From Bacteroidia bacterium (lineage in GTDB: Bacteria > Bacteroidota > Bacteroidia > NS11-12g > UBA9320), in contig JAGYJG010000001.1 of the NCBI GenBank assembly GCA_018402155.1, positions 1,345,001-1,409,000 of the forward strand: a stretch of DNA of 64,000 nucleotides, given 5' to 3'. Both the position numbers and the translations under genes were made by a program. Positions 6,697-62,909 of this stretch are shown here, in pieces. Each line of letters begins with the position of its first letter. Position 1 is the first letter of the stretch. Under the pieces are notes generated by a model. The model had not been told where the DNA came from, did no database searches, and saw nothing but the letters and a program-made list of their open reading frames with translations.

Positions 6697-6724
6697 ATTA
6701 TTTTTATTTTATTTAGTTCTTTTT

Positions 6725-8293: not shown

Positions 8294-8298
8294 AAATA

Positions 8299-9105: not shown

Positions 9106-9110
9106 TAAGT

Positions 9111-10812: not shown

Positions 10813-10822
10813 ATAGAACACC

Positions 10823-44774: not shown

Positions 44775-44837
44775 TTAATAATAAATATAAACATAATTCT
44801 TTTTGATTTAATCCCTGTTTTCTACGATTTTCACGGT

Positions 44838-45956
44838 ATGAAAGCAGCTAAAACATCTCAATCCTCTATAAATCAAAAGATTACCATCTACAAACCACTG
44901 CCCAAAAGCAAGCGAATAAAGATACACATACCGTATGAGCTTAAAACGGAAAGAGAATCTTTCAAACAGCTCAACACTTCATTTTACCACCCTACTCAAA
45001 AGCTATGGAGTATTGTGAATACGGAGGAGAATAAAGAAGAGGTGAGAAAGCTATTTAAAGGCAAATTGGTAGTCAAGGACACAGATACCACGCCTGCCCA
45101 ACCTAAGGTATTGCTATCAGAAAAAAGCCAAAACGAGCTAGATAAAAATTACCAAAAACTGGTGCTAAAAGGGCTAAGCACAAATACTATAAATACCTAC
45201 CAAGGAAACTTGGTGCAGTTTTTCTCCTACTTTGAAAATGCTGATTTGCACAATGTTACCAAAGATCAGATCGAAGGCTTTGTGTATACCTTGGTAAGTA
45301 AATATAAAATAAGTGAGCAAAAGCAAAACAGTGTAATAAATGCCATAAAGAGCTATTACGAGCATACACTAGGCAAGCCGCGAGAATATTATAATATAAC
45401 ACGACCCAAAAAGAGTAAAGACTTGCCTAACGTACTAAGCAAGGAAGAAGTGAAAGCCATTATAAACTCGCCACAAAACATAAAACACAAGGCTATACTG
45501 TACACCATATATAGCGGGGGATTGCGGCTAGGCGAACTGATTCGGCTGCGGGTAACGGATATACGCAGCGACGAAGGATTTATTTTTATAAAAGACAGTA
45601 AAGGCAAGCGGGATAGACACACCGTTTTAAGTCCTAGCTTGCTGATAATACTCCGGCAATACTACAAATCACATAAACCCAGTTACTGGTTATTCGAAGG
45701 ACAGGATGGCGGGCAGTATTCTGCCACCAGTATACAATCCATATTTCGAAAATCGGTAAAGGACACGAAATCAAATCCTTGGAGCACGCCACACACATTG
45801 AGGCATAGCTTTGCTACGCATCTATTACAAGCAGGGGTAAGCATGAGGCACATACAAAGTGCATTAGGACACAGTAGTAGCAAGACAACAGAGGTATATA
45901 CCCACGTAATGAATATTTCTAACAAAACCATAAAAAGTCCTTTGGATTTATTGTAA
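44838..45956 (+). CDS. Tyrosine recombinase at base of cassette array
   Basis: 372-residue site-specific recombinase. Residues 1-80 are an extra N-terminal region (RIKIHIPYELKTERESFKQL, FYHPTQKLWSIV). The SAM-like core-binding domain spans about 95-185. The catalytic domain has R230 (SGGLRLGEL), a beta-hairpin Lys (K255/K257), H319 and R322 (HTLRHSFATHLL), H345 (LGHSS) and the nucleophile Y354 (EVYTHV). It ends KSPLDLL, like integron integrases (VRSPLDAL in IntI1). The IntI-specific insertion of about 20 residues before the HxxR box is missing. It points towards the attC-like array, which it is the obvious candidate to mobilise. Confidence 0.9.
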   Translation: MKAAKTSQSSINQKITIYKPLPKSKRIKIHIPYELKTERESFKQLNTSFYHPTQKLWSIVNTEENKEEVRKLFKGKLVVKDTDTTPAQPKVLLSEKSQNELDKNYQKLVLKGLSTNTINTYQGNLVQFFSYFENADLHNVTKDQIEGFVYTLVSKYKISEQKQNSVINAIKSYYEHTLGKPREYYNITRPKKSKDLPNVLSKEEVKAIINSPQNIKHKAILYTIYSGGLRLGELIRLRVTDIRSDEGFIFIKDSKGKRDRHTVLSPSLLIILRQYYKSHKPSYWLFEGQDGGQYSATSIQSIFRKSVKDTKSNPWSTPHTLRHSFATHLLQAGVSMRHIQSALGHSSSKTTEVYTHVMNISNKTIKSPLDLL

Positions 45957-46065
45957 GGTTTAGTTAATTTTGGGGGGTAATAGAAATGATACGTATAACC
46001 AGTTCACAATGTTTCATCGTATACCTTTTTAATGAGACATGTTTTCTATAGTGTACATAGTGGAA

Positions 46066-46111
46066 ATATGCACAATAGGGTGTTTCTATTGCGCATATAC
46101 TGATGTTAGCA
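46066..46111 (+). repeat. First att-like site (attI candidate or worn attC)
   Basis: A 13-bp hairpin with one mismatch (ATATGCACAATAG / CTATTGCGCATAT, 7-nt loop) is followed by TACTGAT and the core GTTAGCA (46105-46111). The same TACTRATGTTAGCA ends the site at 58181. The left core is worn (TAC instead of AAC). It lies 110 bp after the integrase stop, where an attI would be expected, and marks the left edge of the array. Confidence 0.55.
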
Positions 46112-46131
46112 TTTATTAAAAAGAACAAACT

Positions 46132-46341
46132 ATGAGCGAACAAAAATTAAATAACAAAACTGTATTTCAACTAAAATTTCAAGAATTAGTAATTGTGATT
46201 TTGTCTCTTGTCTTTGGTGGTTTTACAGTTGCTGCTAAGGTTTTTGAAGAAATTGACAATGGCTATATTTATGGTGCAATTTCATTATTAGCTGGAGGTA
46301 TTTTATTGATAAAAAGTAGAAGAAAAATATCCATTAAATAA
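46132..46341 (+). CDS. Small membrane protein of unknown function
   Basis: 69 residues. Two hydrophobic segments (ELVIVILSLVFGGFTVAA and IYGAISLLAGGILLI) separated by a short charged turn, with a basic C-terminus. It is the first gene of the array, 21 nt after the first core site. No family recognised. A terminator-like hairpin follows directly. Confidence 0.55.
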   Translation: MSEQKLNNKTVFQLKFQELVIVILSLVFGGFTVAAKVFEEIDNGYIYGAISLLAGGILLIKSRRKISIK

Positions 46342-46366
46342 AACTCTCACATCTGTGAGAGTTTTC
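46341..46366 (+). terminator. Terminator after the first cassette gene
   Basis: CTCTCAC-ATCT-GTGAGAG is a perfect stem, extended by A/T pairs, and is followed by TTTTCGTATTTTT. The half CTGTGAGAG recurs 30 nt later at about 46391, which may be chance or a worn repeat. Confidence 0.7.
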
Positions 46367-46412
46367 GTATTTTTGAATTCTATAACACCTGTGAGAGAAT
46401 TTTAATCAACTA

Positions 46413-47471
46413 ATGAAAGAACTAAATACCAATAGCTACAAAACATTTATAAATGAGATTATTTCTACAATAAACTCAGCTAGGTATAACGCCTTTAAGG
46501 CAGTAAACAAGCATCATATTGGTTTAAATTTTGAATTAGGTAAACAAATAGTACTGAATCAAGAAAAGTATGGTTGGGGTAAATCCATTGTAAACTCAAT
46601 ATCAGATGACATAAACAAAATAATAGATGGTGTAAAAGGATACTCACCTCAAAATTTATGGAAAATGCGTCAATTTTATCTTGAATACAAAGATGAGAAT
46701 GACTTGTTTGAAATGGCATTAAATATTCCTTGGGGACACAATATGCTTATCATTCATAAGATAAAGGATGCTGTAGAAAGAGAGTATTACCTAAAATCAA
46801 CCGAAGAATTAGCTTGGAGCAGGTCTGTATTGCTAAATCAGATAAAAGCAGATGCTTACAAACGTCATTTATTAGATCCAAAACAAAGCAATTTTGAAAA
46901 AGCTTTGCCTGTTCATCTTTCCGAACAAGCTAATGAAGCAATGAAGAGCGAATACAACCTTGATTTTCTTGGAATAACTAAACCAATATTAGAACGAGAA
47001 TTAGAAAATAGACTTGTTGAAAACATCAGAGATTTACTTTTAGAACTTGGTTACGGTTTTACGTTTATTGGTAATCAATATCGACTAAAATTAAACGAAA
47101 AAGAATATTTTATTGACTTACTTTTCTATCACAGATTTTTAAAGTGTTTAGTTGCAATAGAACTTAAAACAGTTGAATTTGAGCCTGAGTTTGCCGGAAA
47201 AATGAATTTCTACCTTGAACTATTAGACGAAAAAGAAAAACAGCTAGATGACAACCCTTCAATTGGAATTATCCTCTGCCCCACCAAAGATAATATTGAG
47301 GTAGAGTATAGTTTAAAATCAAGCACTAAACCAATTGGAGTTTCAGAATATAAACTGACACACAATTTACCGAGCAAATTAAAAGGGAAAGTACCAAGTG
47401 CAAAAGAATTAAAACAAATGCTAACAAAAGCTATTGTTAATACGGGGTTTAGTGATAAAAGTGAAAATTAA
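46413..47471 (+). CDS. DUF1016 (YhcG-like) PD-(D/E)XK nuclease protein
   Basis: 352 residues. The N-terminal domain (INSARYNAFKAVNKHHIGLNFELGKQI, ending in the Trp-rich ILEVPW-like NIPWGHN) and the C-terminal nuclease domain (YFIDLLFYHRFLKCLVAIELK, with D and ExK at about 234-251) match the YhcG/DUF1016 family. Members often occur near restriction-modification or mobile elements, and a defence or DNA-repair role is suspected. It lies in the first cassette region. The join between it and the small membrane gene is unclear. Confidence 0.82.
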   Translation: MKELNTNSYKTFINEIISTINSARYNAFKAVNKHHIGLNFELGKQIVLNQEKYGWGKSIVNSISDDINKIIDGVKGYSPQNLWKMRQFYLEYKDENDLFEMALNIPWGHNMLIIHKIKDAVEREYYLKSTEELAWSRSVLLNQIKADAYKRHLLDPKQSNFEKALPVHLSEQANEAMKSEYNLDFLGITKPILERELENRLVENIRDLLLELGYGFTFIGNQYRLKLNEKEYFIDLLFYHRFLKCLVAIELKTVEFEPEFAGKMNFYLELLDEKEKQLDDNPSIGIILCPTKDNIEVEYSLKSSTKPIGVSEYKLTHNLPSKLKGKVPSAKELKQMLTKAIVNTGFSDKSEN

Positions 47472-47477
47472 TTCATC

Positions 47478-47550
47478 TAATAACATTAGTGCCTTATTGA
47501 AAGATTTACTACTTTTAATTCCCGTACTAACCATAGCCCAGACGTTAGCT
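47478..47550 (+). repeat. Degenerate attC-like site
   Basis: Left core TAATAAC (47478-47484) and right core GTTAGCT (47544-47550), 73 bp in all. The stem between them is poor (GTGCC against GGGCT is the best stretch). Its right core matches the left core at the end of the following cassette, so the right boundary is sound. The left part is worn or recombined. Confidence 0.5.
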
Positions 47551-47558
47551 GCCATATT

Positions 47559-48173
47559 ATGAGAAACATACTAATATTGACAATATTATTTTTGACAAGC
47601 TGTTCCTATGGACAGAAAACAAGAGATTTTTTAATTTCCTATATTGACACGACAACAGGTGAAGAATTAATAGGTTACAAGGACAAGTTTGGGAAAATAA
47701 TAATTGACGCAAAATATACTCACGTTTATACTGACACATTATATTCAATGGCAATAGTTCTTAAAAATTGGGAATGGGTAGGTATTGACAAGAACGAAAA
47801 AGTAATTTTAAAGCCTTTCATTTTTGACAATGGACCAGATTATTTAGAAGAAGGACTTTTTAGATTTGTTGAAAATAATAAAATTGGCTTTGCAGATATT
47901 GTCGGAAGAAAAATCATAATAGCAAAGTATGACTTTGCAACACCTTTTGAAAATGGACTTTCAGAATATACATTAGGTGGACAAAGAGAATACGAAAAAG
48001 GAGGTGAACATTGGTGGTGGACAGGTGGATATGAAAGTGGTTACATCAATCACGATGGAAAGGAATTTTCCAAAGTCACAGAATTAAAAGATAACAGAAG
48101 AGACGCATGGACAAAAGACAAAAAACATTTTCTTTTAAACAGCAAGGGACAAATAATTAAGCAATTAAAATGA
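47559..48173 (+). CDS. WG-repeat lipoprotein
   Basis: 204 residues. A signal with lipobox (FLTSC, Cys15) is followed by WG-like repeats (WEWVGIDKNEKVILKPFIFD, NKIGFADIVGRKIIIAKYD, ESGYINHDGKEFSKVTELKD). WG repeats are short beta-rich units of unknown function found on bacterial envelopes. It is the only gene of a 768-bp cassette, starting 9 nt after the core. The next cassette also codes for a WG-repeat protein. Confidence 0.75.
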   Translation: MRNILILTILFLTSCSYGQKTRDFLISYIDTTTGEELIGYKDKFGKIIIDAKYTHVYTDTLYSMAIVLKNWEWVGIDKNEKVILKPFIFDNGPDYLEEGLFRFVENNKIGFADIVGRKIIIAKYDFATPFENGLSEYTLGGQREYEKGGEHWWWTGGYESGYINHDGKEFSKVTELKDNRRDAWTKDKKHFLLNSKGQIIKQLK

Positions 48174-48186
48174 CAAAAAATACGGC

Positions 48187-48318
48187 AGCTAACAGCACCT
48201 ACACGCAAGTGGGGGTTCAGTGCTTCTATGAAAGTGAAGTGCTAAATCAAAGTTCAGTACTTTTAATGAAGTTCAGTGCTAAAAATCCCCACCTGCGTGT
48301 AGCTGCAAAACGTTATGC
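48187..48318 (+). repeat. attC-like site, 132 bp
   Basis: Left core AGCTAAC (48187-48193), right core GTTATGC (48312-48318). The inner arms TACACGCAAGTGGGG and CCCCACCTGCGTGTA pair with one mismatch, and the extra bases near the right core (GCTGCAAAAC) resemble the unpaired bases of attC. From AAC to GTT it differs from the site at 51080 by only five substitutions over 124 nt. Confidence 0.85.
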
Positions 48319-48359
48319 TTAATTTTAAAAACTACATTAACCACTTAAAATATCATTTT

Positions 48360-48941
48360 ATGAAAAATACAATTTTAATTTTAGTCATGTTAATTGTTTC
48401 AAATTTGACACATGGACAAAACAATTACGACAAGATTTCGGAATTTGGGCAGTACAATGGAGACTGGGCATTGGTAGAAAGCAACGGGTTATTAGGGTTC
48501 ATTGACAGAGAAGGGAATGAGGTAGTTAAACCTAAATATGACAAGATTTCGGAATTTGGGCAGTACAATGGAGACTGGGCATTGGTAGAAAGCAACGGGT
48601 TATTAGGGTTCATTGACAGAGAAGGGAATGAGGTAGTTAAACCTAAATATGACAAGATTTCGGAATTTGGGCAGTACAATGGAGACTGGGCATTGGTAGA
48701 AAGCAACGGGTTATTAGGGTTCATTGACAGAGAAGGGAATGAGGTAGTTAAACCTAAATATGACAAGATTTCGGAATTTGGGCAGTACAATGGAGACTGG
48801 GCATTGGTAGAAAGCAATGGGTTATTGGGTTTCATTGACAGAGAAGGAAATGAGGTAGTTAAACCTAAATATGATAAAATTCAAAACGAAGGGAAATTAC
48901 AAGGCGAAACAGAAGGGAAAATTGAAATAATAAAAAACTAA
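48360..48941 (+). CDS. Secreted protein with four near-identical WG repeats
   Basis: 193 residues from the ATG at 48360 (MKNTILILVMLIVSNLTHGQ, a signal peptide). An earlier in-frame ATG at 48315 lies inside the attC core and lacks a good signal. The mature part is four tandem 37-residue WG repeats (DKISEFGQYNGDWALVESNG...). The stop codon overlaps the next attC-like site. It is the only gene of a 756-bp cassette. Function unknown; a surface binding role is inference. Confidence 0.8.
   Translation: MKNTILILVMLIVSNLTHGQNNYDKISEFGQYNGDWALVESNGLLGFIDREGNEVVKPKYDKISEFGQYNGDWALVESNGLLGFIDREGNEVVKPKYDKISEFGQYNGDWALVESNGLLGFIDREGNEVVKPKYDKISEFGQYNGDWALVESNGLLGFIDREGNEVVKPKYDKIQNEGKLQGETEGKIEIIKN
48429..48872 (+). 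repeat. Four tandem 111-bp repeats
   Basis: Units start at 48429, 48540, 48651 and 48762. The first three are identical in DNA; the fourth differs by a few silent changes (for example AGCAATGGG for AGCAACGGG). Each unit encodes one 37-residue WG repeat. Recent slippage or unequal exchange is the likely origin, and the repeat number is expected to vary. Confidence 0.95.
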
Positions 48942-49074
48942 GCATAACAGCACCTATGCCCAATAGCCTATGAAAGAGCAAATTGAAATAGCAGTGCCCC
49001 GCAGAATATTTGTAGTGGTGGACAGTAACGAAGCCCGCAAAACGGCTACTGGGCATAGCTGCCAAACGTTATCG
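48942..49074 (+). repeat. attC-like site, 133 bp
   Basis: Left core GCATAAC (48942-48948), right core GTTATCG (49068-49074). Arms CTATGCCCAATAGCC and GGCTACTGGGCATAG pair with one or two mismatches. The central spacer is unrelated to the neighbouring sites, but the edge sequence AACAGCACCTA and AGCTGCCAAAC follows the same plan. Confidence 0.85.
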
Positions 49075-49131
49075 CTCAGTGTAAAAAAACAGACAGACAA
49101 GAACAAAATTAGAAAAATTAAAAAAATATAA

Positions 49132-51069
49132 ATGAACGCAACTGACCCCTCATTAGCCAACATCCTTCAAACACAAGGGAATTTAGAACATTATCACGTG
49201 CCGAAATATCAAAGAGAGTACACGTGGGGAAAAACTGAATGGGAACAACTTTTAGAAGACATAGAAGAGAATGACCCGGGTTACTTTATGGGTAGCATTA
49301 TTTGTATTGACGACAATCACGAATTAGGTCCAGGGGAATCTAGAGTATATGAAGTCGTTGACGGGCAACAAAGATTGACAACCTTATCCCTATTGCTAAT
49401 GGCTATTTATAGAGCCTATCTTGAATGGGAAGAAGAATTAACCGAAGAAGATGACGAAGAAGAAATTGAAGATTATAAGCTTAGGTTAAGCAATATCAGG
49501 AAACAATTAATTCATAAAAAGAATAGTATCAACAAAACTGAAACAGGATACTTCAAAGAGAAAGACAAATTTTGTTTTTTGAGAGTTCAGCCCTCAACGC
49601 AACGAGCAAATTATAATGACTATCTGCATATATTGGCAGAATTGGATTTAATCAAAGGTAATTTTAACTCTAAATTTTGTGGCATACGTAGAATCTACAA
49701 AGCTTATAATTTCTTTTATGACCATTTGCCCAAAACTTTAGAAGGACTGAACGAATTACTGCATAAAATTAACAGTTTAAAGTTTATTCATATCGCTGTT
49801 TCTTCGTCTTCAGATGCATTTACATTGTTTGAATCTTTAAACAATCGTGGCGTTCCGCTTTCAGTAATGGATATCATCAAAAATAAAATGCTTGCCAATT
49901 TGGAAAAGCAACACAAAATGAATATTGATGATGCTTATGACGAATGGCAAAGTTTACTTGAATTTTTACCTGAATACCAAGAGCAAGAAAGATTTCTAAG
50001 ACATTATTACAATGCATTTAAAGTATATCCAGACATAAAAATTGAAAAATACACTAGAGCCACAAAAAGTAACCTTATAAAAATATTTGAACAGTTCATT
50101 AAAAAGAACGCTAAACAACTTTTTGATGATTTAATTGAAAAGGCCGAAACTTACAATTACTTCATTCAACCTGAGAATTATGATGAAGACAGCCAAACAA
50201 AATCTTTAATAGACCTAAAAAGGATTGGTTCAGCCCCTTCATATTTACTATTGTTGTATTTATTCAGTTTGGAAAACAAAGCTTTCAATGACAGAGAAAA
50301 AAGTTTGGATGACGTACTTTCATTTCTTGTAAAGTACTACATCCGAAGAAATATAACAGACTTTCCAAATACTCGAGACCTTGATGCCATCAATATCGAA
50401 GTGATTGAAAATTGTCAAAAGCAACTAGACGACAATAAAAAGTTAAGTGGCAAAACAATTATTGACTTTTTAATCAAAGGTAAAGGAAAACCTGCCTCTA
50501 TAGAAAAATTAAAAGAAGGATTAGAAGACAACTTGTTTTATTATAATTCAGGTATGGCTAGATATGTATTAGCAAAACTTGATGAAGTAACCCATTCAAG
50601 AGAATATAAGCCTGACTTATGGGCTAGAAACGAAAAAGGACTTTTAGTTTGGACAGTAGAACATATTTTTCCACAAGGCAATAACATTCCTAAACATTGG
50701 ATTGATATGATAGCGGATGGAGATAAAACCAAAGCACAAGAAATTCAAGAAAATTGGGTTCATTGTTTAGGTAATTTGACACTTAGCGGTTATAATTCTC
50801 AATTGTCAAATGCAAGTTTTGATACGAAACAAGACCTACATCAAAACAAAAAATTCTTAGGGTATAAAATCAATATCGGGTATAAAAATGGTTTATCTCT
50901 GAATAATATTGAATTTGAATATAATGGGAAAACAACGAACTTAAGTAAGATTAAAAAATGGACAGAAGAAACTATTGAATCAAGAAATAATGCAATGGTT
51001 GACTCTCTTTTAAGACTTTTTGCATTTGAAGAAAGAGAACTTAATGAAATCAAATCAAGCGATGAATAG
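49132..51069 (+). CDS. GmrSD-like DUF262/DUF1524 nuclease
   Basis: 645 residues. The N-terminal DUF262 domain has VPKYQREYTW (23-32) and the nucleotide-binding DGQQRLTTL (77-85). The C-terminal DUF1524 domain has an HNH-type site (WTVEHIFPQ near residue 508, then GNLTLSGYNSQLSN). This single-chain plan matches GmrSD-type, type IV restriction enzymes, which cut modified phage DNA using NTP. Only gene of a 2.1-kb cassette. A phage-defence role follows from the family, not from the sequence alone. Confidence 0.85.
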   Translation: MNATDPSLANILQTQGNLEHYHVPKYQREYTWGKTEWEQLLEDIEENDPGYFMGSIICIDDNHELGPGESRVYEVVDGQQRLTTLSLLLMAIYRAYLEWEEELTEEDDEEEIEDYKLRLSNIRKQLIHKKNSINKTETGYFKEKDKFCFLRVQPSTQRANYNDYLHILAELDLIKGNFNSKFCGIRRIYKAYNFFYDHLPKTLEGLNELLHKINSLKFIHIAVSSSSDAFTLFESLNNRGVPLSVMDIIKNKMLANLEKQHKMNIDDAYDEWQSLLEFLPEYQEQERFLRHYYNAFKVYPDIKIEKYTRATKSNLIKIFEQFIKKNAKQLFDDLIEKAETYNYFIQPENYDEDSQTKSLIDLKRIGSAPSYLLLLYLFSLENKAFNDREKSLDDVLSFLVKYYIRRNITDFPNTRDLDAINIEVIENCQKQLDDNKKLSGKTIIDFLIKGKGKPASIEKLKEGLEDNLFYYNSGMARYVLAKLDEVTHSREYKPDLWARNEKGLLVWTVEHIFPQGNNIPKHWIDMIADGDKTKAQEIQENWVHCLGNLTLSGYNSQLSNASFDTKQDLHQNKKFLGYKINIGYKNGLSLNNIEFEYNGKTTNLSKIKKWTEETIESRNNAMVDSLLRLFAFEERELNEIKSSDE

Positions 51070-51079
51070 AACACCGAAG

Positions 51080-51211
51080 CGATAACAGCACCTACACACA
51101 AGTGGGGGTTCAGTGCTTCTATGAAAGTAAAGTGCTAAATCCAAGTTCTGTACTTTTAATGAAGTTCAGTGCTAAAAATCCCCACCTGCGTGTAGCTGCA
51201 ACACGTTGGTG
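51080..51211 (+). repeat. attC-like site, 132 bp
   Basis: Left core CGATAAC (51080-51086), right core GTTGGTG (51205-51211). Same arms as the site at 48187 (TACACACAAGTGGGG / CCCCACCTGCGTGTA). The cores differ while the interior is shared, as expected if each core travels with its cassette end. Confidence 0.85.
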
Positions 51212-51412
51212 ATAACCTAAAGAAAGAAAAGTAGGCGAGTTAGTGATTGCGAAAAAAGCAGTATATTAGTCGACCGAACCATTCGCTTGTAAACGAATGC
51301 AGCTCTGGACAAAGGTTAAAACCAGCATTAAAAACTGCAAGAACTTAATCAATTCTCGCAGCAATTTTAATGTTTCCGAAGAAAACGGAACGGTTTAAAC
51401 AAATAAGACAAA
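51205..51412 (+). repeat. Structured cassette leader, copy 1
   Basis: A 200-nt untranslated stretch before the metalloprotease gene. Its first 164 nt (51205-51368) are identical to 57587-57750. Three hairpins follow each other: CATTCG/CGAATG at 51280-51299, CTGCaAGAA/TTCTcGCAG at 51335-51361 and TTCCG/CGGAA at 51374-51390. The third keeps its stem in copy 2 although the bases around it change. It could be a promoter region, a regulatory RNA or a translation element. It holds no ORF. Confidence 0.7.
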
Positions 51413-54400
51413 ATGAAAAAAACAATTTCAACAAAACTAAAGTTATTTTTAGGATTAATGGCTGTAGGTGTTTTAGCGTCAGGACAGTGTGAAATGCCAC
51501 ATGATTCCTTACCTAACTTTTCAAATGGACTAGTAGCAAGCGGAGCTTGTAATATTTCATCAAATTATACTCCAAATGAAGAATACTTAGATAACTATTC
51601 TACTATTCATATCAGAGTTGATTTCCACGTATTTCAAAAAGATGATAGCTCAGATAATTTTCAAAATACAACAAATGATAAAAATCACTTAATTGCAATT
51701 CTAGATGATGTAAATCGTAGATACTCAAACTTAGTTACCCCATTCCCTTCAGGAAATTTGATTACAGATTCTAGAATTAAATTTGTTTTGGGAGGCATTT
51801 ACTTCTACCAAAATTCGTCCATTGCTGTTGATATGAACAGGTCTAAAGCAAATCAAGCACTTACGATTATACACAACAATTCAAGTTTATCTAACGATCA
51901 AAAGTTTAACACACTACATATCATTCATGGCATTGGAATATATGGAGGTCTAGCAAGTTGGTTTAATGATAAAGATTGGATATATGTAAAGAACTACTAT
52001 GGTGATTATCTTGCAGACTCTTATGATGGTACGTTTAATTATTCTATTGAAAAAAATAGTGGGCATTTGTCTCATGAAATCGGGCATTCTCTTGGTCTGT
52101 GGCACACTTTTCAAGGGGGCAATAATTGCTCTGATATAGGTTCAAATGTTCAAGGGGGAACTAATAACATGATGGATTATGTAGCATCGCCATATGAGTA
52201 CGAATCTCTCTCAGAATGCCAATTAGGCATAATCCAAAAGAATCTCAAGGGGCTATCTGGAGGGAATATTAGTGATTGTGTAATACCAACTTTTTGTTCA
52301 GTAAACCCACTAGAAAATATTGAAATTAAAAACGGCGAAAACGATGTATGGAACAACCCTAGATTTTTGAACGGCGACTTGCTGGTTAAAAATGGGGGGG
52401 TTCTTACCATCAAGTGCTACACCTCCGTTCCAAGTGATGGGAAAATTATAATTGAGAAAGGTGGGAGTTTAATTATAGATGGTGGCATAATAAGTAACGA
52501 GTGCAATCAACAATGGCAAGGAATATATGTAGAAGGTGATCCTAATAAATCCCAGGTCCCATTTAGCAATCAGGGATATGTAAGAATAATTAATGGAGGC
52601 ACCATAGAACATGCACGAACAGGTATTACTTTATGTGGCCTTAATTCTTCAGGTAACATTGATTTATCAAAAAGTGGTGGCTTAGTTATCGCCAAAGACG
52701 CAATTTTTCAAAATAATTGGAGGGACATCTCATTTACTGGATACCACAATCTGCCTTATACTGTTGCATTTGCAACCCCTAACCTTAGTAGTTTTAACAA
52801 CTGTAGCTTCATAACGACCAACGAATATCGAAGTGATCACGTTAATGATATATGGCCTAATGTAACTATGTGGGGAGTGGTTCAGGTAAAATTTACTGGT
52901 TGTACTTGGCACGATCAAAGGGATGGCTCTATCGACCCTAGGCTAGATGATTACCTACAAAGAAGAGATGGTTTGTTTGCAATGGACGCAAGTTATAGGA
53001 TAACGGATTTATTTGCTATGAGACCATTGGAAATCCCTTCTCCTTCTATTGCCACGAGTTATTTTAAAAATATGCGATATGGGATACAATCTTTGGATAA
53101 TCCGCTTGCTGGTAATAACTTTACTAATGGAAGACCAAGCACAGTACAAGATGCACAGTTTGAAAACTGTCTTGGGGGGATTTATCTCAGTGGAGTAGAA
53201 GGGGCTTTACTTACAAGAAATAACTTCCAAATAGAGCCGTATGATGTGCCAAACTTCAGAGAGATTGAGGCTTACGGAATATACTTAGACAACAGTAATG
53301 GCTATCAAACTGAGGGTAATACTTTTTCATCAAACTGGGCAATAGACCCTGTAGCTAATCTTTCAGTTGGGATTATAACCAATGCCAATGAGAATCGAAC
53401 TAATAGGATTTATCGCAACTATTTTAACGATAATTTACTAGGGGCAGAAGCTATTGGTTGGAATCGACATCAAAATGTTGGTTCATATCCAGAAATAGGT
53501 TTGAAGTATCGATGCAATGATTTTGGTTCATCTAGTGATAACAACTTAGATATTTGGGCGACCCACCACCAAACGATTCCTTATTCAACTGCACAGACTG
53601 GTTTGCCTCAACAAGGCAATTTATTTGACCCAATGGGAAATCTATTCGGAGTTTATGGAACGAGTGGGCATCGTCACTTTAACTACCTACAAAGTCCTAG
53701 TAGTTTTGTTCAATACTTTCATCACGACCTGACAGTTGAGCCTAGAGTAGAACCGAATATACAATGGGGAGTAAATAACTTTAGTGTTGGATCATCTTGG
53801 ACAACATTCAATGCTGAATGTCCTGATAATACCAGTTCAGGTTACCTAGTAACTCAAAGTCATATTGATAAAGTCGATTTTGATCTTGTTGAAATGAAAA
53901 TTAAACGAACACAATTAAAGCAGTTTGTTGATAACGGTAATACCATTGATGTTGTTCAGAGAATACAGACCGTTAATGCTAATACTATTGGAACATTAAT
54001 ATCTGATTTAACCAGCTATTCACCCTATTTATCAGACGAGGTGTTACTTACTTTGAGTACTTCAAATACGCCGATAACTCATCTACAGATTAGAGACATA
54101 TTAATGCTAAACCCTCACAGTTCGGGAAACCCGAATGTGATTGCATCGTTACAAAATAGATCAGATAATTATCCTGCTAGTTACATTGCTGATATTCTTT
54201 CTTTAAATAATACACTCACCGCAAGAGACTCCCTTGTAGCGGAAGTTTATCATCATAGTAACGAATATGATAATGGTGTAAACAGTATTTTGATCAGGGC
54301 TCTTAATGATAGTGTGGATAGATTTGAAGAATTGGTAGAACCAATTTTACTTGCTTCAAATAGACCACAACACAGATACCGTTTAGCCGCTTTATATGAC

Positions 54401-55054
54401 AGTAGAGGTGATTCTACTGAGGCACAACAGATTCTTTCTGCTATTCCAACAATGGAAAGTTTTGAAGCTTCACAGCTAGACTATCACAACGACCTTATGG
54501 CACTACGTTCCTTGCTTAAGACTTGGCGTGAACAAATTATAGATTTATCCAACCTTGATTCCTCGAGAATTGCAGCACTAAAAGTGTATGAGAATAAAAC
54601 GAATGGTATTCAATATAAAGTGTATCCTATATTAGCGTTGAACAAATCTTCTACGTATATAGCTCCAATCTACATGCCATCTGTTCCACCTTCAAGTGCA
54701 ATGAGCACCAACAATGCACAAAATAATGAAGGAGTGGATGATGAGATTGATTCTTCAATTCCTGTTGAATCACGACTTTATATAGATAGATCAATGAATA
54801 GTAACTATCTTAATGTCTATCCAAATCCTACTCAAAAATCATTAAACGTAGCTTATATATTGGAAGATGATATTGCTGGTGCTGAGATTATTATTTATGG
54901 TTTAGATGGCAAGGTGCTTAATCGTATTGTAATTTCAGACTCACATGGTAGAGAAACGATCGATGTAAGTACTATGAGAAATGGGCAATATATCTGTGCG
55001 GTAGTAGCACAAGGCATTAAGTTGAAGCAATTGAGATTTGCTATTACACGATGA
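51413..55054 (+). CDS. Large secreted metzincin protease, T9SS cargo
   Basis: 1213 residues. Signal peptide (1-24). The metzincin site is HEIGHSLGLWH (H221, E222, H225, H231) with a Met-turn NMMDY (252-256), as in M43/pappalysin-like proteases. A long region follows, with a parallel-beta-helix look (repeated GGIYLSGVEGALLTRNNF, GIYLDNSNGYQTEGN). Then comes a helical part, and a T9SS sorting domain ends the chain (NVYPNPTQKSLNVAY, LKQLRFAITR). First of three overlapping genes in a 6.4-kb cassette. Confidence 0.85.
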   Translation: MKKTISTKLKLFLGLMAVGVLASGQCEMPHDSLPNFSNGLVASGACNISSNYTPNEEYLDNYSTIHIRVDFHVFQKDDSSDNFQNTTNDKNHLIAILDDVNRRYSNLVTPFPSGNLITDSRIKFVLGGIYFYQNSSIAVDMNRSKANQALTIIHNNSSLSNDQKFNTLHIIHGIGIYGGLASWFNDKDWIYVKNYYGDYLADSYDGTFNYSIEKNSGHLSHEIGHSLGLWHTFQGGNNCSDIGSNVQGGTNNMMDYVASPYEYESLSECQLGIIQKNLKGLSGGNISDCVIPTFCSVNPLENIEIKNGENDVWNNPRFLNGDLLVKNGGVLTIKCYTSVPSDGKIIIEKGGSLIIDGGIISNECNQQWQGIYVEGDPNKSQVPFSNQGYVRIINGGTIEHARTGITLCGLNSSGNIDLSKSGGLVIAKDAIFQNNWRDISFTGYHNLPYTVAFATPNLSSFNNCSFITTNEYRSDHVNDIWPNVTMWGVVQVKFTGCTWHDQRDGSIDPRLDDYLQRRDGLFAMDASYRITDLFAMRPLEIPSPSIATSYFKNMRYGIQSLDNPLAGNNFTNGRPSTVQDAQFENCLGGIYLSGVEGALLTRNNFQIEPYDVPNFREIEAYGIYLDNSNGYQTEGNTFSSNWAIDPVANLSVGIITNANENRTNRIYRNYFNDNLLGAEAIGWNRHQNVGSYPEIGLKYRCNDFGSSSDNNLDIWATHHQTIPYSTAQTGLPQQGNLFDPMGNLFGVYGTSGHRHFNYLQSPSSFVQYFHHDLTVEPRVEPNIQWGVNNFSVGSSWTTFNAECPDNTSSGYLVTQSHIDKVDFDLVEMKIKRTQLKQFVDNGNTIDVVQRIQTVNANTIGTLISDLTSYSPYLSDEVLLTLSTSNTPITHLQIRDILMLNPHSSGNPNVIASLQNRSDNYPASYIADILSLNNTLTARDSLVAEVYHHSNEYDNGVNSILIRALNDSVDRFEELVEPILLASNRPQHRYRLAALYDSRGDSTEAQQILSAIPTMESFEASQLDYHNDLMALRSLLKTWREQIIDLSNLDSSRIAALKVYENKTNGIQYKVYPILALNKSSTYIAPIYMPSVPPSSAMSTNNAQNNEGVDDEIDSSIPVESRLYIDRSMNSNYLNVYPNPTQKSLNVAYILEDDIAGAEIIIYGLDGKVLNRIVISDSHGRETIDVSTMRNGQYICAVVAQGIKLKQLRFAITR

Positions 55055-56649
55055 TGAGGATTTTTATCACATTTTATATTATTTTGGGTACGAGCTTGTT
55101 GGCTCGTGCCCAAAATTTATATGATTTTGTTTTGACTGATGGCTGGAAGGCATCAAAGGTGTTTCATAGTAACGAAGACACAAATATTATTGTCGGACTA
55201 GTCTCTGATCCTAATCCAAGTGCATTTCATCGTTTTCATTTCACGACATTAGACAAGAATAATGATGTTATCAAAATCGATACGTTCAATCTACCATGGT
55301 CTAATTTTGTATCTTACCAATCTCCGTTTGGAATACAGAAGGATGATGGCGACATATTTATCAATGGGCACTTCTCTACCCAAAATGGTAATTATTCAGG
55401 AGGCGTTTTTCGATTTAAAGATGGACTAGAGTTAGAACAGTTTGATTCAGTGCCTTACGGAGGTACTAGCTCAGTATTTTCTTATATTTCAAGGAAAAAT
55501 ACCCAAACCGATATTTTTTACGGAGGATATCAAGATGGAAGTAGAGGAAATAGTGTACAAACTTATTTAACCCTTATACGTAATGAAGACACCACCATTA
55601 GTACATTTAATAATGGAAACTTGTTATCAGAATATGGTGATTGCATTACACTGCCACGGCAGCTAATATCCTCTAATGATGGCGGGTACTTGCTAGTTAA
55701 TACTCTAAAGCCTGTATCATGGGCGGAAAGAGAGGCATATCAAGGTCTTATAATAAAAGTGGACAGCTTAGGAGATGAATTGTGGCGTTTGCCTATATGG
55801 GAAGATAGTACTACCGTATATGATTTATTAGTTGCCCCATTGGCAAATGGCAATTATTTGGCAGTGTATCAGGACAAATGGTACCAACCCAATAAATCAC
55901 CTTGGGGCAATCATATTGCAGATGCAAACCCAAATTCGGTTACTTGGCTCGTAGAGTTCAATTCTAATGGAGAGATAATAAAAAAGTGGAATCTGCGAGA
56001 AAATCTTGAAAAAGTATTAGGTAAACGCAGATACTTAAATGGATATAGCAACCTACACATAGAAGAAAATGGAGATCTAGTATTTGTAGGTTATTCTAGG
56101 GACAATGGCAAATATGGGTACGACGTAGGTTTTTCTTTAAAACTGGATAAAAACGGAAACTTCAAGTGGTATAGACAGTATGAAGTAACCGTAGCCGGAC
56201 CTTATAACAGTGGGGAAGAGAACATCTTTCTTTATGGCATATCCAAATTAAGAAATGGAGGATATGCACTTTGTGGAGAGTACCGAAGTCACCCAAGTGA
56301 TAGTTTTCCTAGTGGTTGTCAGAAAGGGGTGGTGCTTTTTGTAGATAGTTTTGGGTGTATGGAGCCTGGATGTCAGAAGAATGACAATATCGGCGTAGCT
56401 GAATTACAAGCAGCTAAGTCGTTATTTTCGGTATATCCTAATCCGAGCAGTTCGGAATTCCATATCTTAAATACCAAATCACAAACACCAAATAGGCTAG
56501 AAGTGTATGATGCGTATGGACGATTGGTCTATGCTCCAAAAATAGTAACCAAAGTTCTGAATGTTTCTCATCTAACTCCAAATATCTATTATCTCAAATT
56601 ATTCCGTTCCGACGGCTTTTACGAAACACATAAAATAATAATACAATGA
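55051..56649 (+). CDS. Secreted T9SS-sorted protein, possible beta-propeller
   Basis: 532 residues. Signal peptide (MMRIFITFYIILGTSLLARAQ). Repeated units of the type DGGYLLVNTLKPV, NGNYLAVYQDKW, NGDLVFVGYSRDNG and NGGYALCGEYRS suggest a beta-propeller. It ends in a T9SS sorting domain (VYPNPSSSEFHI, GFYETHKIIIQ). Its ATG overlaps the protease stop, and its own stop overlaps the next gene, so the three are coupled. No enzymatic site recognised. Confidence 0.75.
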   Translation: MMRIFITFYIILGTSLLARAQNLYDFVLTDGWKASKVFHSNEDTNIIVGLVSDPNPSAFHRFHFTTLDKNNDVIKIDTFNLPWSNFVSYQSPFGIQKDDGDIFINGHFSTQNGNYSGGVFRFKDGLELEQFDSVPYGGTSSVFSYISRKNTQTDIFYGGYQDGSRGNSVQTYLTLIRNEDTTISTFNNGNLLSEYGDCITLPRQLISSNDGGYLLVNTLKPVSWAEREAYQGLIIKVDSLGDELWRLPIWEDSTTVYDLLVAPLANGNYLAVYQDKWYQPNKSPWGNHIADANPNSVTWLVEFNSNGEIIKKWNLRENLEKVLGKRRYLNGYSNLHIEENGDLVFVGYSRDNGKYGYDVGFSLKLDKNGNFKWYRQYEVTVAGPYNSGEENIFLYGISKLRNGGYALCGEYRSHPSDSFPSGCQKGVVLFVDSFGCMEPGCQKNDNIGVAELQAAKSLFSVYPNPSSSEFHILNTKSQTPNRLEVYDAYGRLVYAPKIVTKVLNVSHLTPNIYYLKLFRSDGFYETHKIIIQ

Positions 56650-57500
56650 AAACACTTATCGCATTAACAACTTTGTTAATAACCTTGTCAGCAAATGCTC
56701 AGTATTTCGGAAGAAATATCTGCTTCCTTGAAAAACACATCAACCATACGTCTAATACCTTCTCTGGAATAGTAGCTCACCTAACTTATCTAGATTCTAC
56801 TAATGTTGGGGATTTATATAGCTTTAAGTCCGATACGATTATAGAACGGAATGATTCTATTTTTCTTAAAACTATTACACCAGCACAGGATAAACATACA
56901 TCCTTATTGTTTTCTATGGCAATAAAAGAACTAGATAGTTTTTTTTTACAGCACATTTATCACAACGGAGAGGTAGAGGATATCATATTTTATGTAGATT
57001 CAGTAGTTTTTAATGGCGTTTGTGAAATCACATATTTTCATAACAAGCCAACCCAATTTGGATATTCAGAAAATTTTGCTTGGCGTGATAGCTTAGGAGA
57101 TGTAAAATTTGGGCCAAACTATACCGATGTGTTTAACCAGATTGATTATTCCATCGAATTTTTGGCTTATTCAAAAAATAATGAATTCTATTATATGGAT
57201 GGCCAATCATGGCAAACTTTAGGTGACACAAGTTGTAAATTTGAAGAAAGCCTAAGAACGTTGACAGTTAGAGACATCAAAGTGCAACAACTAGTCGTGC
57301 ATCCAAACCCAAGCTCTAGCTATCTCTATATTAAAGATAGCGTGCTTAAGGCATACAAAGTTTACAACTCCTATGGCATATTGGTTATGCAGGGTGTTGA
57401 GGCAGGGCGACTTGATATATCTAATCTAAAAACTGGTGTTTATTATGTAGAATTGTTCGATCATAATAATGTTTTACGAGGAAAATTCACTAGAGAATAA
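56646..57500 (+). CDS. Secreted T9SS-sorted protein of unknown function
   Basis: 284 residues. Signal peptide (MKTLIALTTLLITLSANAQ). The mature part is beta-rich without a known motif, and the end is a T9SS sorting domain (VVHPNPSSSYLYIKDS, LKTGVYYVELFDHNNVLRGK). It overlaps the upstream gene by 4 nt (ATGA). Last gene of the cassette, 11 nt before the attC-like site. Confidence 0.7.
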   Translation: MKTLIALTTLLITLSANAQYFGRNICFLEKHINHTSNTFSGIVAHLTYLDSTNVGDLYSFKSDTIIERNDSIFLKTITPAQDKHTSLLFSMAIKELDSFFLQHIYHNGEVEDIIFYVDSVVFNGVCEITYFHNKPTQFGYSENFAWRDSLGDVKFGPNYTDVFNQIDYSIEFLAYSKNNEFYYMDGQSWQTLGDTSCKFEESLRTLTVRDIKVQQLVVHPNPSSSYLYIKDSVLKAYKVYNSYGILVMQGVEAGRLDISNLKTGVYYVELFDHNNVLRGKFTRE

Positions 57501-57511
57501 GAAAGGCTAAT

Positions 57512-57593
57512 CACCAACACTGTGTATAACGTAATGCCGCTCCTACCCACACGCCATACAAGTGCGGCACTACGTATACACTTGCCGTTGGTG
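57512..57593 (+). repeat. attC-like site, 82 bp
   Basis: Left core CACCAAC (57512-57518), right core GTTGGTG (57587-57593). Arms GTGTATAaCGTAATGCCGC and GCGGCACTACGTATACAC pair along about 18 bp, with a bulged A on the left strand and one mismatch. The short length and extrahelical base are classic attC features. The cores on both sides are complementary because the next cassette shares the same leader. Confidence 0.87.
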
Positions 57594-57794
57594 ATAACCT
57601 AAAGAAAGAAAAGTAGGCGAGTTAGTGATTGCGAAAAAAGCAGTATATTAGTCGACCGAACCATTCGCTTGTAAACGAATGCAGCTCTGGACAAAGGTTA
57701 AAACCAGCATTAAAAACTGCAAGAACTTAATCAATTCTCGCAGCAATTTTTAATGTTCCGCAGAAAACGGAACGGTTTAAACAAATTAGAAACA
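57587..57794 (+). repeat. Structured cassette leader, copy 2
   Basis: Second copy of the leader at 51205, identical over its first 164 nt and similar to the ATG and about seven codons beyond. The third hairpin is GTTCCG/CGGAAC here, one pair longer than in copy 1. It introduces only a truncated reading frame. Confidence 0.7.
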
Positions 57795-57881
57795 ATGAAA
57801 AAAATAATTTTAACAAAAATGGTAATGCTAGCGGGACTGGTTATTGCCTTTATGTCTTGTAACGACATTGAGCTGTTGTAA
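57795..57881 (+). pseudogene. 28-codon lipoprotein signal remnant
   Basis: Reads MKKIILTKMVMLAGLVIAFM, then SCNDIELL and a stop: a lipoprotein signal with lipobox FMSC and almost nothing after it. The first codons resemble those of the protease gene that follows leader copy 1. Most likely the 5' end of a cassette gene whose remainder was lost. Confidence 0.6.
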
Positions 57882-58074
57882 GCTCCCCCAAAAATAGTAC
57901 GGAATAAAAGTAGAAAATTAATAATTTTTACAATTGTCAACAAATACATATCTGCCGACAAGCAATGTGAGAAGAAAACTTTGAAGAGTCTCCTCCAGTG
58001 GCGGATAAACTTTTGGATTTAGTTTAAGAAAAGCATATTTTTGAGAACACGATATGAGAATAAACGTACCCACT
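57882..58074. other. Decayed cassette interior
   Basis: No intact gene. A short frame around 57968-58026 reads EENFEESPPVADKLLDLV before a stop, and could be the 3' end of the lost lipoprotein gene. CTCCCCCAAAAATAGTACGG at 57884 directly follows the remnant and resembles an insertion-sequence end, without a partner that I can find. Confidence 0.4.
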
Positions 58075-58181
58075 TCACCAATAATGCTTTTTAACTATAT
58101 CAATGAACCAATTCAAAGTTGCGTAGATAGTAAAAATAGACGCATGTTTTGTGGGGAGTTACGTCTATACTAATGTTAGCA
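58075..58181 (+). repeat. Degenerate attC-like site
   Basis: Expected left core TCACCAAC is TCACCAAT at 58075-58082. The right core GTTAGCA (58175-58181) is intact and matches the end of the next cassette. Near the right end TAGACG and CGTCTA form a short stem with TAGTA/TACTA beyond it. The site closes the decayed cassette. Confidence 0.5.
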
Positions 58182-58186
58182 GTAAT

Positions 58187-59035
58187 ATGAAAAAAAGTAT
58201 TTTCTCTTTATTTTTTTGTTTCGCATCCTTGGGGCTAAGTGCACAAAAGTATGAGGGTATTAAACCGTTTGATTTGAAACCGCTAGAAATTGAATGTTCA
58301 ATAATTGCTGAGGATGTAGCCTTGGATTATTACGTAATCAGTTGGAGTGTGCCACTCATAGATTCCATTGCCAAATCAAACAATGAGTTACCAAATATGG
58401 AATTAAATTGCTTTGTTTACGATTCCTCCGGGTTAATCGGATACTACAAAGGCTTAAGTACACCTATGCAACATTGCACATTTCAAACCAAAGACTCCAT
58501 TGTTGAAGTGTTCTTTAGATGGAGAATAATGCCTTACAGTTATTACAATCAAGGTTCTACTAAAATTAGGATTTCAAGTGTAAACCTAAATCCTTTTCAT
58601 AAAGCCCCTCACCGTAACTATGAATTTGAAAGTGTTCGTCTACCCGTTAATTCAACAATAAACAAAAAACTGACACTTATAAATGATACAAATACAGTTC
58701 AAATTTCATATGGTACAAGAGGAAAGGAAGATTCTTTTGGAATGCGCATACCCGGTTCTATATATGCGTATTCTGTCATTTCTTTAGATCGGTATTATTT
58801 AAGTCTGAAAACAGGTCGAATTGCTACAGGCCAAAAGTGGATAGATCGAAAAGGTGCAAAACGAATAAGTCAGAATGCTTACCAATTTTTGCTTGTATCG
58901 CCTTCTATGCTATATCTAGATGATGACAACAATCGGCATTTAGGCTCAGAATTGATAGATAAAGGAAGAGTTAAACTTAGAAGATTTAACATAGAAGATT
59001 TCATTAGTACTGACAAAGAAAACATTCCATATTGA
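58187..59035 (+). CDS. Secreted protein of unknown function
   Basis: 282 residues from the ATG at 58187 (MKKSIFSLFFCFASLGLSAQ, a signal peptide). A GTG at 58151 in the same frame would put the start inside the att site. The mature part is beta-rich with no known motif and no T9SS domain. Only gene of a 994-bp cassette, starting 12 nt after the core. It ends shortly before the attC-like site. Confidence 0.65.
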   Translation: MKKSIFSLFFCFASLGLSAQKYEGIKPFDLKPLEIECSIIAEDVALDYYVISWSVPLIDSIAKSNNELPNMELNCFVYDSSGLIGYYKGLSTPMQHCTFQTKDSIVEVFFRWRIMPYSYYNQGSTKIRISSVNLNPFHKAPHRNYEFESVRLPVNSTINKKLTLINDTNTVQISYGTRGKEDSFGMRIPGSIYAYSVISLDRYYLSLKTGRIATGQKWIDRKGAKRISQNAYQFLLVSPSMLYLDDDNNRHLGSELIDKGRVKLRRFNIEDFISTDKENIPY

Positions 59036-59045
59036 AAAATACTAC

Positions 59046-59175
59046 TGCTAACACAGCATATAGCTTATGGCGGGTTAACGGCTGCCTGCAAGGTTTTCGC
59101 TCCTTAGCCGGTTTTGGTTTTGTGGGACAGGAAAGTGCTTCGAAACCGCCATAAGCCATATACAAACCGTTAGCG
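59046..59175 (+). repeat. attC-like site, 130 bp
   Basis: Left core TGCTAAC (59046-59052), right core GTTAGCG (59169-59175). Arms ATATAGCTTATGGCGGGTT and AACCGCCATAAGCCATAT pair over about 18 bp with one bulge or mismatch. The left flank AACACAGC is shared in part with the site at 61645 (AACACAAA). Confidence 0.87.
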
Positions 59176-59451
59176 GTTATTCAAAAATGATATCAGAAGC
59201 TAGGCAAGAGCATCGGTTTCTGAGACCAATTTTGGGTCACAAAACGTAAAAAAGGGTTCTGATTGAACCAAAAGAACAAAAAATGACGTTTTGATGATAA
59301 ATTTGAAGAATGCTGCTCAGACGGTTTGAACTTGGTGGAGTATTTAGCTCCTAGTGTAGGCTAAAAAGAGTTCGATTTTAGTGTTATCAGGATAGGATAT
59401 TTGGTTCCATCCTTTGTTTAACCGGAGAGAAATCTCCACAAAAAGAAAGAT
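59176..59451 (+). promoter_or_regulatory. Hairpin-rich cassette leader
   Basis: 276 nt without an ORF before the first gene of a three-gene cassette. Hairpins seen: GGTTC/GAACC at 59255-59269, TTTAG..CCTA/TAGG..CTAAA at 59343-59365 and GGAGA/TCTCC at 59424-59437, the last just before the ATG. The sequence is unrelated to the leader at 51205, but the plan is the same. Confidence 0.55.
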
Positions 59452-60240
59452 ATGAAAAAAACATTAATTACATTATTTTTAGTAATCGGAACATTCGCAG
59501 CAACTCAAGCTATACCTCCACTTTTTGGTCCAAATGGAACACTTAGCATGTGGAAGTGTAGTTGGAATAGTGATCTGTCGATTACAGACAATGGAGACGG
59601 TTCCTGTGGCTTTACGAGAAGTCAGACATGCACTCACTGGCTTTGGGGTTCGCAAACTAACGGCTACGAATGGTCTAAACCTTGCGGACAGAATGGGACA
59701 AATGGAGATGGAGACGACAAACCTTTTGATTGCCCCTGCGGTGTAGGAGTTGAAGCGCACTTAATTGCAGATGCAATGGTTGAAATAAATGCATCTGGAA
59801 TATCTGTTCCGAGCCAGTTTATGGATGAGACTATATTATCTACAGACAACCAAGTACTTGAAGACTGTTTTATTTTCCGAATGACGCTAGCTGGCTATGA
59901 CATGACTGACGCACAGATGTTCGATCCTTGTTATATCCCATCTACTACACTTCCTGTTCAAGTTCCACTTTTCGGTCCTCTTCCGATAAAACTTGATTGT
60001 GCTACAGTAGCACCCAATCCTGTAAGCGATATTTTATCAATTAATCTAAATGGCTTAGAAACACAGATTACAAAGATTCAACTTATTGCAAACGGTAGCG
60101 GTTTAGTAGTTCTCGAGTTAGCTAACCCTATAAGTCCTATAGTAACAATTGATGTAAATAATTACGACCATGGTTTGTACAATTTACTACTTTTCAGAAA
60201 TGAAGAGGTTCTATCAAATCTAATACAGATTATTAATTGA
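59452..60240 (+). CDS. Secreted cysteine-rich T9SS-sorted protein
   Basis: 262 residues. Signal peptide (MKKTLITLFLVIGTFAATQA). The first part of the mature chain has many Cys, Trp and Gly (KCSW, GSCGF, QTCTHW, PCGQNGTNGDGDD, CPCG), suggesting disulfides and metal or surface binding. The C-terminal third is a T9SS sorting domain (VAPNPVSDILSINLNG, GLYNLLLFRNE). First of three overlapping genes in the cassette. Confidence 0.7.
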   Translation: MKKTLITLFLVIGTFAATQAIPPLFGPNGTLSMWKCSWNSDLSITDNGDGSCGFTRSQTCTHWLWGSQTNGYEWSKPCGQNGTNGDGDDKPFDCPCGVGVEAHLIADAMVEINASGISVPSQFMDETILSTDNQVLEDCFIFRMTLAGYDMTDAQMFDPCYIPSTTLPVQVPLFGPLPIKLDCATVAPNPVSDILSINLNGLETQITKIQLIANGSGLVVLELANPISPIVTIDVNNYDHGLYNLLLFRNEEVLSNLIQIIN

Positions 60241-61136: not shown

Positions 61137-61632
61137 GTTACCACAAGTAGCAGCAGTATTATTACCAATAGTCTTCATTTTATTAAACATAAATTTGAAA
61201 GCACAAAACTCTCCGTACTATATACCTGAATCTTACCCCATACCATTGGATAGTGTAAGTCAAGTCACTAACCTTGTGCCGTTAGTAAGTGATAGTATTG
61301 ATAATAGTAGACTAATTATTGTTTATGGATTTACTGGTTGTAAACCATGCGAAGTTCTTCAACGAAGAATTCAGCACAAAATTGACAAAGAGATTATTAA
61401 ACCAAGCCAGATTATGTATGTAAACATATTTGTACTGGACACTATTTCGTTTAAAGAAAAACTACAAAAAAACAATATAAAGTTTCAGTATTATGTAACA
61501 GAGTCGCCTTATGTTGGTGAAATAAGTGGTGCCTTCCCTATGATTGCAGCTTATAAAAACGGAATAAAAGAATGGGTACTTAATGGATATAGTCCTTCAA
61601 ACAATCGTACAATGTTTAAATATCTCGAATAA
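61102..61632 (+). CDS. Exported thioredoxin-like protein
   Basis: 176 residues. An N-terminal hydrophobic segment (VAAVLLPIVFILLNINLKA) exports or anchors it. A thioredoxin-type site CKPC sits in RLIIVYGFTGCKPCEVLQRR (about 70-89), and AFPMIAAYKNG near residue 150 fits the cis-proline side, with Pro before MIA. Possible role: forming or repairing disulfides in the cysteine-rich protein of the same cassette; this is inference from context. It ends 12 nt before the attC-like site. Confidence 0.7.
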   Translation: MSKFPFNSISNKLPQVAAVLLPIVFILLNINLKAQNSPYYIPESYPIPLDSVSQVTNLVPLVSDSIDNSRLIIVYGFTGCKPCEVLQRRIQHKIDKEIIKPSQIMYVNIFVLDTISFKEKLQKNNIKFQYYVTESPYVGEISGAFPMIAAYKNGIKEWVLNGYSPSNNRTMFKYLE

Positions 61633-61644
61633 AGAACAACAAAC

Positions 61645-61746: not shown

Positions 61747-61756
61747 GCAAGCTAAA

Positions 61757-61888: not shown

Positions 61889-61900
61889 CAAAACATAAAA

Positions 61901-62905: not shown

Positions 62906-62909
62906 GGAT

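Follow-up and report, generated by a model that had tools for sequence, protein, structure and literature searches.

The window analysed here is a 64,000-nucleotide stretch of a Bacteroidia bacterium (GenBank assembly GCA_018402155.1, contig JAGYJG010000001.1, positions 1,345,001 to 1,409,000), in which a tyrosine recombinase gene is followed by an array of gene cassettes. Two genes of this array, yhcG and a GmrSD-like gene, encode proteins of nuclease families. Judging from the sequences, both are probably the cargo of two integron-type cassettes in a mixed store that includes defence genes. The two nuclease cassettes appear to be ordinary cargo; the unusual part is the store itself, whose cassettes are bounded by attC-like sites and which stands beside a recombinase that lacks the IntI-specific insertion and appears to be widespread in Bacteroidota.

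Cassettes, attC-like sites and the attI-like region

A covariance model of the attC-like sites, R1, was built on 15 sites from this genome and two relatives, and its search of the 2.49-Mb genome returned 37 sites at E up to 0.0095. The window's array (array B) extends to contig position 1,440,423. Array A lies 3' of a second copy of the recombinase gene, which is 97% identical. Array C (L161-L163, G000:C1:931-967 kb) has about 12 attC-like sites and has kept the attI-like region; a recombinase match was looked for at 931-967 kb and was not found. The features on which the argument rests are the following (aa, amino acids; ORF, open reading frame).

44838-45956, + strand: tyrosine recombinase of 372 aa that lacks the IntI-specific insertion and is HARP-like at residues 13-80
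45957-46107, + strand: attI-like region; arrays A and C conserve it as far as the GTT core (46105-46107)
46106-47544, + strand: cassette 1, with a 69-aa ORF, a terminator-like hairpin and yhcG
46413-47471, + strand: yhcG, encoding a YhcG/DUF1016 PD-(D/E)XK nuclease of 352 aa, intact
47416-47551, + strand: attC-like site ending cassette 1, R1 88.5 bits
47545-48312, + strand: cassette 2, with a WG-repeat protein (47559-48173)
48184-48319, + strand: attC-like site ending cassette 2, R1 101 bits
48313-49068, + strand: cassette 3, with a WG-repeat protein (48315-48941)
48939-49075, + strand: attC-like site ending cassette 3, R1 86 bits
49069-51205, + strand: cassette 4, with the GmrSD-like gene
49132-51069, + strand: GmrSD-like gene, encoding a DUF262/DUF1524 protein of 645 aa, intact
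51077-51212, + strand: attC-like site ending cassette 4, R1 106.8 bits

In a stem scan, the sequence 3' of the recombinase gene gave seven AAC...GTT hairpin sites, all on the + strand, and neither strand of window positions 1-44000 gave any. A scan demanding complementarity between the left and right cores within each site overlooked true sites, since the right core is part of the following cassette; the stem scan took its place. An Rfam search of 44800-64000 at gathering thresholds gave no match.

The ends of the cassettes are complementary to each other. Cassette 1 starts with GTTAGCATT, the reverse complement of its end core AATGCTAAC, and cassette 4 starts with GTTATCGCT, the reverse complement of its end core AGCGATAAC; an exact 9-nt reverse complement between own start and own end is present in all seven testable cassettes of the window. 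With a start that complements its own end, a cassette would restore its attC on becoming circular. The wider cassette set comprises 123 segments from 46 loci, taken from a hand-written table that omits weaker site hits and single-site loci, with segments of <200 or >7000 bp dropped. Complementarity of at least 4 of 5 nt between start and end was seen in 68 of 96 cassettes, whereas 200 permutations averaged 9.8 and never exceeded 18, the count leaving out 27 of the 123 segments that were first cassettes or in which no GTT was found. The ORFs of the cassettes follow the orientation of the attC sites in 204 of 221 cases, and the 17 opposing ORFs were dropped from the cassette counts.

The stems of the sites covary. 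In an alignment of 69 matches (67 distinct) that was fitted to R1, with a few rows coming from its training set, doubly changed cells numbered 244 vs 93 in shuffles (0/500 shuffles), and the covariation score was 0.464 vs at most 0.074 when the alignment was slid. The sites thus combine AAC/GTT cores with an imperfect hairpin conserved in structure, and the cassettes have complementary start and end cores, both as in integrons.

Arrays A and B share 99% identity over the recombinase gene and the attI-like region; the identity runs to position 46107, where GTT ends, and past it they diverge (GTTGCAAG against GTTAGCAT). The attI-like region of array C is 92% identical and then continues with GTTGGTGA; a stretch of array C (L162:7723-10065) has 94.8% identity to a stretch of array B (L042:13956-16295), starting at the GTT core. 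Comparison of the platforms of arrays A, B and C and of G010 points to an attI site adjoining the integrase gene, with insertion at G^TT. The adjacent recombinase would excise and capture cassettes by joining a folded attC strand to attI at G^TT; new cassettes would enter beside the recombinase, and YhcG would be among the latest gained.

An entirely different explanation is that the hairpins are ordinary terminators or REP-like (repetitive extragenic palindromic) repeats and that the nuclease genes lie in a variable region next to an unrelated Xer-type recombinase. Intergenic hairpins are indeed widespread, and the enzyme does not qualify as a canonical IntI. However, the stem covariation with conserved AAC/GTT cores, the self-complementary cassette ends, the end of homology at GTT, the lack of sites in 1-44000 and the co-occurrence of sites with the recombinase across genomes (see below) make this very improbable.

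Nuclease genes and defence content of the cassettes

The initial annotation had placed a YhcG/DUF1016 protein and a GmrSD-like protein in the part of the array nearest the integrase, where newly gained cassettes are expected. Both genes turned out to be intact, on the + strand and within bounded cassettes, the GmrSD-like gene in cassette 4 and yhcG in cassette 1, which adjoins attI and the recombinase. Position 1 fits a recent gain of YhcG, and both genes are missing in the same-genus relatives: none of the 18 has a YhcG_C match, and none of the 18 has a GmrSD match at E up to 1e-15.

The yhcG product matches Pfam YhcG_C with 210 bits (cut-off 32.5) and DUF1016_N with 128 bits, and gives a full-length match to the PADLOC model PDC-S02 (E 2e-129). 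Residues of the PD-(D/E)XK type are seen in FIDLLFY at 233 and AIELK at 248, so that the DUF1016_N domain and the C-terminal PD-(D/E)XK domain of YhcG / PDC-S02 are both present. The GmrSD-like protein matches Pfam GmrSD_N with 137 bits (cut-off 33.2) and GmrSD_C with 59 bits (cut-off 23) and has the motifs DGQQRLTTL (77), EHIFPQ (510) and GNLTL (within 540-551); it thus has both domains and the motifs of GmrSD (type IV restriction). It also matches the PADLOC models Orf5, HEC-06 and SspE. In domain content and motifs it resembles the GmrSD / type IV DUF262-DUF1524 family, and YhcG resembles YhcG / PDC-S02 in its full-length match and catalytic-type residues; each of the two window members differs in residing in an integron-type cassette. 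Both proteins may act as nucleases against invading DNA, the GmrSD-like protein as an NTP-dependent (nucleoside triphosphate-dependent), modification-dependent (type IV) restriction enzyme, and YhcG as an enzyme that cuts with its PD-(D/E)XK domain and owes its specificity to DUF1016_N.

The array had further been proposed to serve as a store of defence genes, an idea that would fail if related arrays were not enriched in defence families. A PADLOC scan at E up to 1e-8 covered 204 cassette proteins and 130 non-cassette controls (of 165 control ORFs, 150 were drawn and 130 scanned). The models matched numbered 247 for the first 102 cassette proteins and 87 for the second 102, vs 24 in the 130 controls, where the matches were mostly helicase-type cross-matches. 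Such counts are inflated by redundant models, and proteins were therefore counted instead. At least 16 of the 204 cassette proteins turned out to be defence proteins vs 0 of the 130 non-cassette proteins (Fisher p 3e-4, with the defence categories picked after the hits were known). These 16 are two YhcG proteins, GmrSD, SngA, SngB, SngC and PDC-M48B; a HaeII-like enzyme and an NgoPII-like enzyme, each with a C5 methyltransferase; two type IIG pieces; and three further methyltransferases. The number is a lower bound, covering the listed families and ten proteins checked individually, and the members matching HaeII, SngC and NgoPII are presumed to be separate proteins. The enrichment in related arrays was thus found.

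Two sister cassettes seem to hold whole systems. A Shango system lies in one cassette of L063, with SngA (5847-7823), SngB (7823-9133) and a presumed SngC (9136-11259) bounded by attC sites 5506-5641 and 11420-11555. An apparent restriction-modification unit lies at L167:10360-12556 between attC sites 10119-10254 and 12603-12738; it consists of a regulator-looking ORF, a C5 methyltransferase with a PPCQ motif and a 279-aa ORF that may be an NgoPII-like nuclease.

Several observations weigh against a defence store with the two nuclease genes as its cargo. The majority of the cargo is secreted or unknown, and the most frequent Pfam family in the cassettes is a secretion-system sorting tail (16/204). 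Among the 11 ORFs scanned from cassettes of the window, only two have a known link to defence. Elsewhere in the relatives there are 16 YhcG_C matches, one of which lies between attC sites (G024, L192), and the GmrSD relatives in G042 and G053 have no attC within about 1.5 kb. PDC-S02 is a candidate label of PADLOC rather than an established system. In cassette 1, a 69-aa ORF (46132-46341) and a terminator-like hairpin (46340-46365) stand directly upstream of yhcG; with this hairpin in between, the reading of yhcG from attI is uncertain. The attC-like site 47416-47551 overlaps the 3' end of the gene. The proposal of a defence store is therefore supported in part: Shango, restriction-modification and a second YhcG in related arrays speak for it, while the mostly secreted or unknown cargo does not. 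Whole defence systems amid unrelated secreted and metabolic genes suggest a mixed store that includes defence.

It is also conceivable, although rather unlikely, that the array is genuine and that YhcG and the GmrSD-like protein serve not phage defence but addiction, plasmid exclusion or DNA repair. The function of YhcG is unproven beyond its candidate label, and ParE, Fic and other toxin-like families are likewise present among the cassettes. On the other hand, sister arrays carry GmrSD-type, restriction-modification and Shango genes, a cargo pointing towards the exclusion of DNA.

Integrons as defence stores have already been published for Vibrio and mobile integrons (excerpts of PMC12409362), and the sedentary chromosomal integrons of Vibrio are described there as defence 'biobanks' (Darracq 2025, Kieffer 2025 and Getz 2025, as cited in those excerpts). 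The window shares with these integrons cassettes bounded by attC hairpins, a tyrosine recombinase with attI, and defence among many unrelated genes. It differs in its recombinase without the IntI insertion, its large cassettes (cassette 5 is about 6.4 kb) and its Bacteroidota host. The present data would extend the Vibrio-style storage of defence genes in integrons to Bacteroidota.

A recombinase lacking the IntI-specific insertion

The recombinase scores 128 bits against Pfam Phage_integrase and 187 bits against TIGR02249, below the cut-off of 265; none of 58 genomes (own included) has a TIGR02249 match above the cut-off. IntI4 (PDB 2a3v) shares the core-binding and catalytic domains, with 26% identity in the fold match, and aligns in two pieces. 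Unlike IntI4, the window recombinase skips IntI4 residues 187-243 and adds an N-terminal domain. Its best relatives cover the TIGR02249 profile only at positions about 3-179 and 238-315, and the IntI-specific insertion is absent from all 22 aligned relatives. Two catalytic boxes lie 91-92 residues apart in the majority of these proteins and 133 apart at the IntI-like loci L152 and L156. An integrase with the IntI-specific additional domain (I2), as in a canonical integron, was thus not found. The missing insertion is considered necessary for attC use, and its absence counts against an integron-type role of this enzyme. The best sequence and fold matches are XerA-like recombinases (5hxy, 4a8e), which likewise have no insertion; unlike them, the window recombinase is associated with attC cassettes and, in its branch, has a HARP-like N-terminal domain. 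In a tree the family, IntI and XerA-like proteins of archaea or the candidate phyla radiation (CPR) group together and separate from housekeeping Xer (100/99); the same tree leaves its relation to IntI unsettled.

R1 sites were found in 20 of 80 named loci, and 51 of 54 sites share the strand of the recombinase gene. The 28 lowest-ranked loci (L133-L160) gave no R1 sites; R1 was trained on one gene/site order, so divergent sites will be missed. Across the phylum, 148 Bacteroidota genomes were drawn evenly and the recombinase family was called at E up to 1e-42, which found it in 52 of them. Attribution by genome gave attC-like sites in 47 of the 52 genomes with the recombinase vs 33 of the 96 without (p 1e-11), a comparison of two lists that is scored per genome and says nothing of adjacency. 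The 33 recombinase-free genomes with sites, and the five of 52 that have the recombinase and no sites, count against the integron-type reading given above.

These counts bear on whether the cassettes are moved by another enzyme, either housekeeping XerC/D or an IntI from outside, with the adjacent recombinase a bystander. The missing I2 insertion and the sites in 33/96 genomes without the family are what would be expected then. However, none of the 58 genomes (own included) has a canonical IntI above the cut-off, the recombinase gene was duplicated along with the attI-like region, the copies being 99% identical, and nine loci of other recombinases showed no sites within their short flanks. We consider a bystander role unlikely. 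If the adjacent recombinase, an enzyme of the Xer/IntI kind without the IntI insertion, moves the cassettes, it must have a different means of recognising the folded site.

The recombinases of L201, L202, L204, L207 and L208 are about 280 aa long (246 aa in L207), lack the IntI insertion and point away from the attC arrays, which is the classical integron orientation. Clear attC-like sites, divergent ones, are present at these five loci, more than ten of them in L202; L205, L206 and L209 have weak sites only.

Taken together, we lean towards the view that Bacteroidota hold a widespread, unrecognised class of integrons that moves folded attC sites without the I2 helix. In one branch the HARP-like domain, as a structure-specific binder of DNA, may help to hold the hairpin, and another branch would be minimal, at about 280 aa; the class may stand near the ancestor that preceded I2 or represent an independent route to single-strand cassette recombination. 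It would have been missed by surveys because these recognise integrases by that very insertion. According to excerpts of PMC9668308 and PMC8352920, integron surveys identify integrases via the additional domain, and in the part of PMC9024848 available to us the only complete integron that the IntegronFinder 2.0 survey names for Bacteroidetes proper is that of Salinibacter ruber M1. A partial text of PMC8138268 notes incomplete conservation of the insertion within its integron-like subgroup, and some I2-less relatives may therefore have been seen earlier. Searches of an open-licence library yielded no description of an I2-less Bacteroidota integron or of a HARP domain in an integrase. Single-strand recombination is attributed to the gain of I2 (excerpts of PMC7790495); should the proposed class be real, this account of how integrons became possible could be put to the test with natural enzymes, and a large, as yet unexplored cassette store, possibly with new defence genes, would open up.

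The HARP-like domain and further features of the window

Residues 15-80 of the recombinase are predicted to form a bb-a-bb-a-b unit (mean predicted local distance difference test score, pLDDT, 73). The window protein scores 12.2 bits against Pfam HARP (PF07443; cut-off 25), and six of 27 members match the family, with a best E of 5e-7. With a 27-sequence profile the first of the PDB chains was the SMARCAL1 HARP domain (4o66, E 0.033); fold matches are weak (Z about 5) and include the N-termini of T4 UvsW and XPB. The idea of HARP as a general replacement for I2 was weakened, as the recombinases of eight of nine further loci (L201, L202 and L204-L209, all but L203) have no evident HARP-like stretch. 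Since attC-associated members of about 280 aa lack an evident HARP-like domain, the domain does not appear to be required across the class.

Further features of the window are as follows.

45942-45972, + strand: candidate Pc promoter-like pattern TTG-N20-TAATTTTG, overlapping the recombinase 3' end
51206-57587, + strand: cassette 5, about 6.4 kb, with three proteins bearing secretion-system sorting tails
57509-57594, + strand: attC-like site ending cassette 5
57920-58177, + strand: attI-like relic without recombinase, of which the part 58013-58193 matches, at 73.5%, the region directly after the G010 recombinase
58177-59169, + strand: cassette with one ORF (58151-59035) and attC 59043-59176
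59170-61740, + strand: cassette with three ORFs (59452-60240, 60237-61136, 61102-61632) and attC 61642-61747

The promoter-like pattern also matches at 58013; it was called by its match to a Bacteroidota consensus, and 4.5% of attI regions give such a match after shuffling. The relic at 57920-58177 lies inside the array and gives the impression of a fusion of two integrons. In cassette 3 the WG-repeat protein (48315-48941) is built from nearly identical 111-bp repeats and is probably fast-changing. A leader of about 230 bp opens several cassettes; its copies at 51204-51436 and 57586-57818 are 96% identical, and it is also found in arrays A and C.

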